A stretch of 34,421 nucleotides of DNA from Anaerolineae bacterium (GTDB lineage Bacteria; Chloroflexota; Anaerolineae; B4-G1; SLSP01). Made by a program: the position numbers and the translations under genes. Each line of letters opens with the position of its first letter. Position 1 is the first letter of the stretch. Of the stretch, positions 590 through 836 are shown one piece after another. The notes under the pieces are model-generated. The model was not told where the DNA came from and searched no databases. It worked only from the letters and a program-made list of their open reading frames with translations. Location of the stretch: the NCBI GenBank assembly GCA_016926915.1, contig JAFGNR010000092.1, positions 1-34,421 on the forward strand. Reading direction: 5' to 3'.

Positions 590-619
590 TTGACAAACGA
601 CCTAAAGCTGTGCTATAGT
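590..619 (+). promoter_or_regulatory. Strong sigma70-type promoter (P1) upstream of rpoD
   Basis: A consensus -35 TTGACA (590-595) and a -10 TATAGT (614-619, 5/6) are separated by 18 bp, giving a predicted start near 626. No long gene begins directly after it. Transcription would meet an intrinsic terminator at 645-677, so the default product is an RNA of about 50 nt unless read-through into the rpoD leader occurs. Confidence 0.75.
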
Positions 620-635
620 TTACAAGTCTTTGTAA
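620..635 (+). promoter_or_regulatory. Perfect dyad at the P1 start site
   Basis: TTACAA (620-625) and TTGTAA (630-635) form a perfect 6-bp inverted repeat around GTCT. It begins directly after the P1 -10 box and spans the predicted start site. It could be an operator for a dimeric repressor or a 5' hairpin of the short RNA. Sequence alone cannot separate these, and chance is possible. Confidence 0.4.
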
Positions 636-677
636 GAGCATGGGAGAGCACTGGGAAAACCGCCAGTGCTCTTTTTT
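626..677 (+). ncRNA. Candidate ~50-nt terminated transcript
   Basis: The predicted RNA runs from the P1 start near 626 to the T-run ending at 677. It may be a small RNA or the terminated product of an attenuator for rpoD, whose GTG lies about 210 nt further on. The segment AGAGCA occurs twice (635-640 and 645-650), so the right arm of the terminator (667-673) can also pair with 634-640, an alternative fold. A 15-codon frame (640-687, starting MGEHW) overlaps the terminator but has no properly spaced ribosome binding site. No known RNA family is recognised. Confidence 0.4.
645..677 (+). terminator. Intrinsic terminator in the rpoD upstream region
   Basis: A perfect 10-bp stem, AGAGCACTGG (645-654) with CCAGTGCTCT (663-672), encloses the 8-nt loop GAAAACCG and is followed by six T residues (672-677). 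This is a textbook rho-independent terminator. It sits only about 20 nt after the predicted P1 start site. Confidence 0.85.
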
Positions 678-836
678 CGCCGCCTGATTGCTGTTCATCC
701 AGGTGTCAGCCGCTGAGGTTGATCCCCCTTGAACGGAGGGGGGGCTCGGGGGTGCGTCAACAGCCACTGTCTTTCGGGGACAGTTTCACGCTGTCTCAGA
801 GTGGAAATGGTTAGAATCGACGAATTGACGCCGGAT
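678..836 (+). other. Rest of the rpoD upstream region, with two hairpins
   Basis: No credible gene was found here. CCCCCTT (724-730) can pair with GGAGGGGG (735-742). ACTGTC (766-771) can pair with GACAGT (779-784) across the loop TTTCGGG. Neither hairpin has a following T-run, so they are not called terminators. They may be part of a structured 5' leader if P1 transcripts read through to rpoD. Confidence 0.4.

Follow-up and report, generated by a model that had tools for sequence, protein, structure and literature searches.

A minimal promoter–hairpin unit lies ahead of one of two RpoD-like sigma genes found in the genome of the window, the 34,421-nt stretch of DNA analyzed here, and it is kept ahead of the orthologous gene within the window's family and in several families beyond it in the class Anaerolineae. 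With moderate confidence, we read this unit as an attenuator that acts in cis on transcription of a primary-type sigma gene and probably restricts the supply of this sigma factor, which we call type A.

The promoter, P1, spans positions 590–619 (+ strand), with TTGACA at 590–595, an 18-nt spacer, and TATAGT at 614–619. It has an extended -10 (TGc at 611–613, with TG at 611–612), and relatives keep it ahead of their orthologues, both within the family and in further families of the class. Judging from the position of the -10, transcription would start near 626, giving a short predicted 5′ leader (626–644, +) that is 3–25 nt long in relatives and unconserved. The leader runs into a hairpin at 645–672 (+), recognized by pairing, folding, and conservation, in which AGAGCACTGG (645–654) forms a 10-bp stem with CCAGTGCTCT (663–672) around an 8-nt loop (655–662). 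Six T residues (672–677, +), the first of them within the stem, mark the predicted 3′ end of a short RNA. With its GC-containing stem leading directly into a U-run, 645–677 has the sequence of an intrinsic terminator. Both the TTGACA-18-TATAGT promoter and the 10-bp stem with six T proposed in an earlier note on this DNA were borne out, and the RNA 626–677 folds at -21.5 kcal/mol (z = -3.7; none of 200 shuffles equaled it). The hairpin sits between P1 and the sigma gene, all on the same strand, as expected of a cis attenuator. Of the sites in the window that match a promoter pattern at 10 or more of 12 positions, nine in all, P1 alone has a terminator within 130 nt downstream; this promoter–terminator background covers the 34-kb window only.

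The sigma gene (891–2144, +) encodes an RpoD-like protein with regions 1.1, 1.2, 2, 3, and 4, whose best named relatives are in metagenome bins labelled Anaerolineae, Thermoflexales, and Thermoflexus (Chloroflexota). Upstream of it lies a divergent XPB-type helicase gene starting at ~518. The window is contig G000:C360 of a 4.3-Mb assembly that holds two RpoD-like sigma genes with region 1.1, type A in the window and its paralogue, type B, at G000:C236, together with a third, shorter RpoD-like gene without region 1.1. Type A scored 342.2 against RpoD_Cterm (cut-off 354), with all sigma-70 regions present; type B scored 350.4. The two types form separate groups in the tree (support 1.0 for the B branch). 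Sequence alone does not decide which of them is the housekeeping sigma, so the gene that the earlier note called rpoD is to be read as RpoD-like, type A.

We then compared this region among relatives. A search with a 141-bp query gave significant matches in the closest genus only, and the wider set was drawn from regions upstream of orthologous sigma genes. P1 was identified upstream of the orthologous sigma gene at 17 same-family loci, and at 16 of them a U-tailed hairpin follows (15 by script plus L014, whose P1 was assigned by hand). The pattern shared by nearly all members is TTGACA/T-18-TATAGT and then a U-tailed hairpin whose stem base is AGCAC/GTGCT; the loop and the leader diverge. Every family copy that has the hairpin also has the U-run. 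The exception, L009, keeps P1, but in place of the AGCAC hairpin it has another one with a long stem (CTTGCGTTT...AAACGCAAG) and no U-run. The earlier note had made its proposal hinge on conservation in related species, and promoter and hairpin are indeed kept together ahead of the orthologous gene. No family genome holds more than one strict P1–AGCAC copy, and each copy whose context was read lies at the type A sigma gene. Strict matches to the hairpin are also rare in these genomes, a few of which have a second one.

The stem itself shows covariation. Changes on both sides were seen at five of 13 family stem pairs, a number reached by none of 500 shuffles, and slid versions of the pairing did far worse. 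The lowest pairs are invariant and thus uninformative by this measure, and the full conservation of AGCAC in alignment A1 is biased since its sequences were selected by that motif. The inner stems were more stable than shuffled interiors (mean z -2.8; p<0.05 for 23 of 31). A CIRCE-like or other DNA-operator reading of GAGCAC...GTGCTC was rejected: with widely differing distances between the arms and an interior that folds, the element is better read as RNA.

Across the class Anaerolineae, 31 of 48 P1 sites have a strong terminator within 130 nt, compared with ~5 expected from dinucleotide shuffles. Most of these loci were chosen by P1 and its linkage to the sigma gene, but the excess is an upper estimate, since several entered via the hairpin and near-duplicates are included. 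Those with GGCAC, GAGCGG, or GCAGC stems were identified through P1 alone. Variants of P1 precede hairpins at L084–L090, L095, L109–L122, L140, and L141, where many of the hairpins have U-rich tails and some differ in stem sequence. The layout around the unit changes between families. In three loci from other families of the same order (L019, L022, L025), P1 and a larger GAGCAC...GTGCTC hairpin without a U-run stand just before the sigma start codon. In G040, G036, and G080, the unit heads an operon of ABC ATPase, ABC permease, Gld-like protein, and sigma genes, ~4 kb upstream of sigma; the type A gene is the last gene of such an ABC-Gld-sigma operon in two other families (L186:4252-9528, L193:140-5600, L232:209-4730). 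Many families of the class are without the element, and no P1–hairpin unit was found within ~1 kb in the sampled other families (f6, f12, f16, f29, f33, and others). A covariance-model search of 396 genomes placed its top matches at the type A sigma gene. Most of the weaker matches that we examined fell in ordinary terminators, repeats, or coding sequence and had no P1 ahead of them, and a dispersed element family was rejected. Separately, genome G036 (L214 = G036:C307; C68, C330) has dispersed AACCACAAAGAGCACAAAG-type repeats that fit the hairpin pattern in both orientations.

The sequence shows the anatomy of the unit, its conservation, and its linkage to the sigma gene; from these features we infer that P1 fires, that transcription terminates in part at the hairpin, and that the extent is modulated. 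RNA polymerase would start at the strong promoter P1 and make a tiny RNA, ~52 nt in the window and about 38–62 nt in relatives; the default product of about 50 nt suggested earlier is consistent with this reading, which predicts about 40–60 nt. Most rounds would stop at the intrinsic terminator, and only the read-through fraction would continue from P1 into the sigma gene. Read-through would most likely depend on the termination machinery itself (NusA/NusG-type factors, nucleotide levels, polymerase speed, temperature), as a leader this short and variable could not accommodate an aptamer, antiterminator, or leader peptide. The stem in genera g3, g9, and g10 begins only 3–4 nt past the predicted start, leaving no upstream room for any of these. 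The attenuator reading is further supported by the continued linkage of the element to the sigma transcription unit across layouts, whether before the start codon or heading an operon, by the varying orientation of the upstream neighbor among genera, and by the paralogous type B gene, upstream of which the AGCAC hairpin is absent in the loci examined.

One feature of the locus counts against this reading, as does the absence of the element from many families of the class. A weaker promoter-like site, P2 (TTGAAC-17-TAAACT; 837–865, +), identified as a consensus match by comparison, lies between the terminator and the sigma gene and could supply that gene without read-through. Similar sites occupy this position in family relatives (TTGAa-17-TACACT or TTGACA-16-TATGCT), and P2 seems to serve the sigma gene too in the window's family. 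If the putative P2 is active, sigma supply in this family would not depend on read-through alone, and P1 would add a controlled increment onto a basal supply. The spacer between the terminator and P2 is longer in the window than in the closest relatives, and two more GC-rich hairpins (CCCCCTTGAACGGAGGGGG; ACTGTCTTTCGGGGACAGT) lie in it at 724–785.

A different function is suggested by the relatives that lack the U-run. Several members of the same order (L019, L022, L025–L028) have promoter and hairpin without it, so termination cannot be the function everywhere, and the hairpin may have another role too, such as 5′-end protection. Taken as the whole explanation, a hairpin that stabilizes the sigma mRNA at its 5′ end or directs its processing, blocking 5′-end decay or serving as an RNase III or translation-control site, with the U-run secondary in some families, seems unlikely to us. 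It would account for the hairpins without a U-run that stand right before the sigma start codon in some of these relatives, and for the retention of the AGCAC/GTGCT stem base in the AGCAC-type set. However, the window's family keeps the U-run in every copy of the hairpin, where the predicted RNA would end, and U-rich tails are retained in other families despite different stems.

The cis attenuator could also work without any sensor, the terminator lying so near P1 that the state of the polymerase alone decides read-through; retained sigma, NusA loading, or nucleotide level might be the deciding state. We hold this version only tentatively, as a rather doubtful one; if it is true, transcription capacity would feed back directly on the synthesis of sigma.

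It is improbable that the unit encodes an independent, tiny trans-acting sRNA whose position before the sigma gene is incidental. The element does have its own promoter and terminator, and in the window's family the sigma gene could be served by the putative P2. A base-pairing sRNA acting in trans would be expected to conserve an unpaired seed, but the 5′ tail and loop are unconserved even between genera, the element is tied to the sigma transcription unit even where the layout was rebuilt, and family genomes hold no second strict copy. The free-standing small sRNA that the earlier note had entertained is for these reasons unlikely.

We give still less credence to the idea that the hairpin simply ends transcription of the upstream gene and that a promoter is nested there by accident. 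A same-strand ORF does end shortly before P1 in g3, g8, g9, and g10, and GAGCAC...GTGCTC stems also serve as ordinary terminators elsewhere in the class. In the window, however, and apparently also in g2, g6, and g11, the upstream gene runs divergently, so terminating that gene is not a general role of the hairpin. P1, itself highly conserved, sits in between.

The attenuator reading proposed from the window alone thus stands as the best interpretation, and the mechanisms proposed with it, a leader peptide or a competing pairing, fall away almost entirely on comparison. The 15-codon frame at 640–687 (MGEHWENRQCSFFAA) is present in the window, but short frames are different or missing in every family relative. 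The AGAGCA repeat also exists and could pair with the terminator on paper, but the alternative is ~11 kcal/mol weaker (-10.7 vs -21.5 kcal/mol) and unconserved, and the 3–4-nt leaders of g3, g9, and g10 again argue against an antiterminator-type switch. A riboswitch, T-box, or known leader RNA was rejected as well, as no described RNA family matches: Rfam gave no gathering-score match in the window, and a relaxed threshold gave chance-level matches only.

In amino-acid, riboswitch, and T-box attenuators, too, a 5′ leader transcribed from its own promoter contains an intrinsic terminator, preceded there by a sensor (peptide, aptamer, or tRNA-binding domain) and an antiterminator. The P1–hairpin unit differs in having no detected sensor or antiterminator, nor room for them. 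Among systems acting on transcription-machinery genes, the E. coli rplL-rpoB attenuator is similar in placing a terminator-like signal ahead of such genes, which it uncouples from the upstream unit (PMC4670729). That signal separates genes within a single operon at a long distance from the promoter, whereas the one described here lies within ~40–60 nt of its own promoter and precedes a sigma gene. Premature termination before a sigma gene, predicted here, is also known from E. coli rpoS, but there it is Rho-dependent, occurs in a 567-nt leader, and is relieved by sRNAs (PMC6582626), in contrast to an intrinsic hairpin behind a 3–25-nt leader. Primary sigma genes of the macromolecular synthesis operon (rpsU-dnaG-rpoD or dnaG-sigA) are under several promoters, as described for Staphylococcus epidermidis (PMC2824700). 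P1 and the putative P2 resemble that arrangement, but in the window no dnaG lies beside the sigma gene, and a promoter–terminator unit is found instead.

In our literature search, we found no leader attenuator of rpoD or sigA, no transcript maps from Anaerolineae, and no report of a P1–terminator–sigma arrangement. To our knowledge, little is known about the control of primary-type sigma factors outside model bacteria. A minimal P1–terminator unit conserved in several families at one of two RpoD-like genes would offer a simple, testable way of tuning sigma supply to the state of the transcription machinery, and the P1–hairpin is a conserved element without an Rfam entry.

The type B sigma loci show a different upstream organization. 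All six loci with enough upstream sequence (L266, L269–L273) have a conserved TTGACG-17-TATAAT ~590–770 nt upstream of the open frame, and this distance suggests that the leader is long or that a small gene lies upstream.
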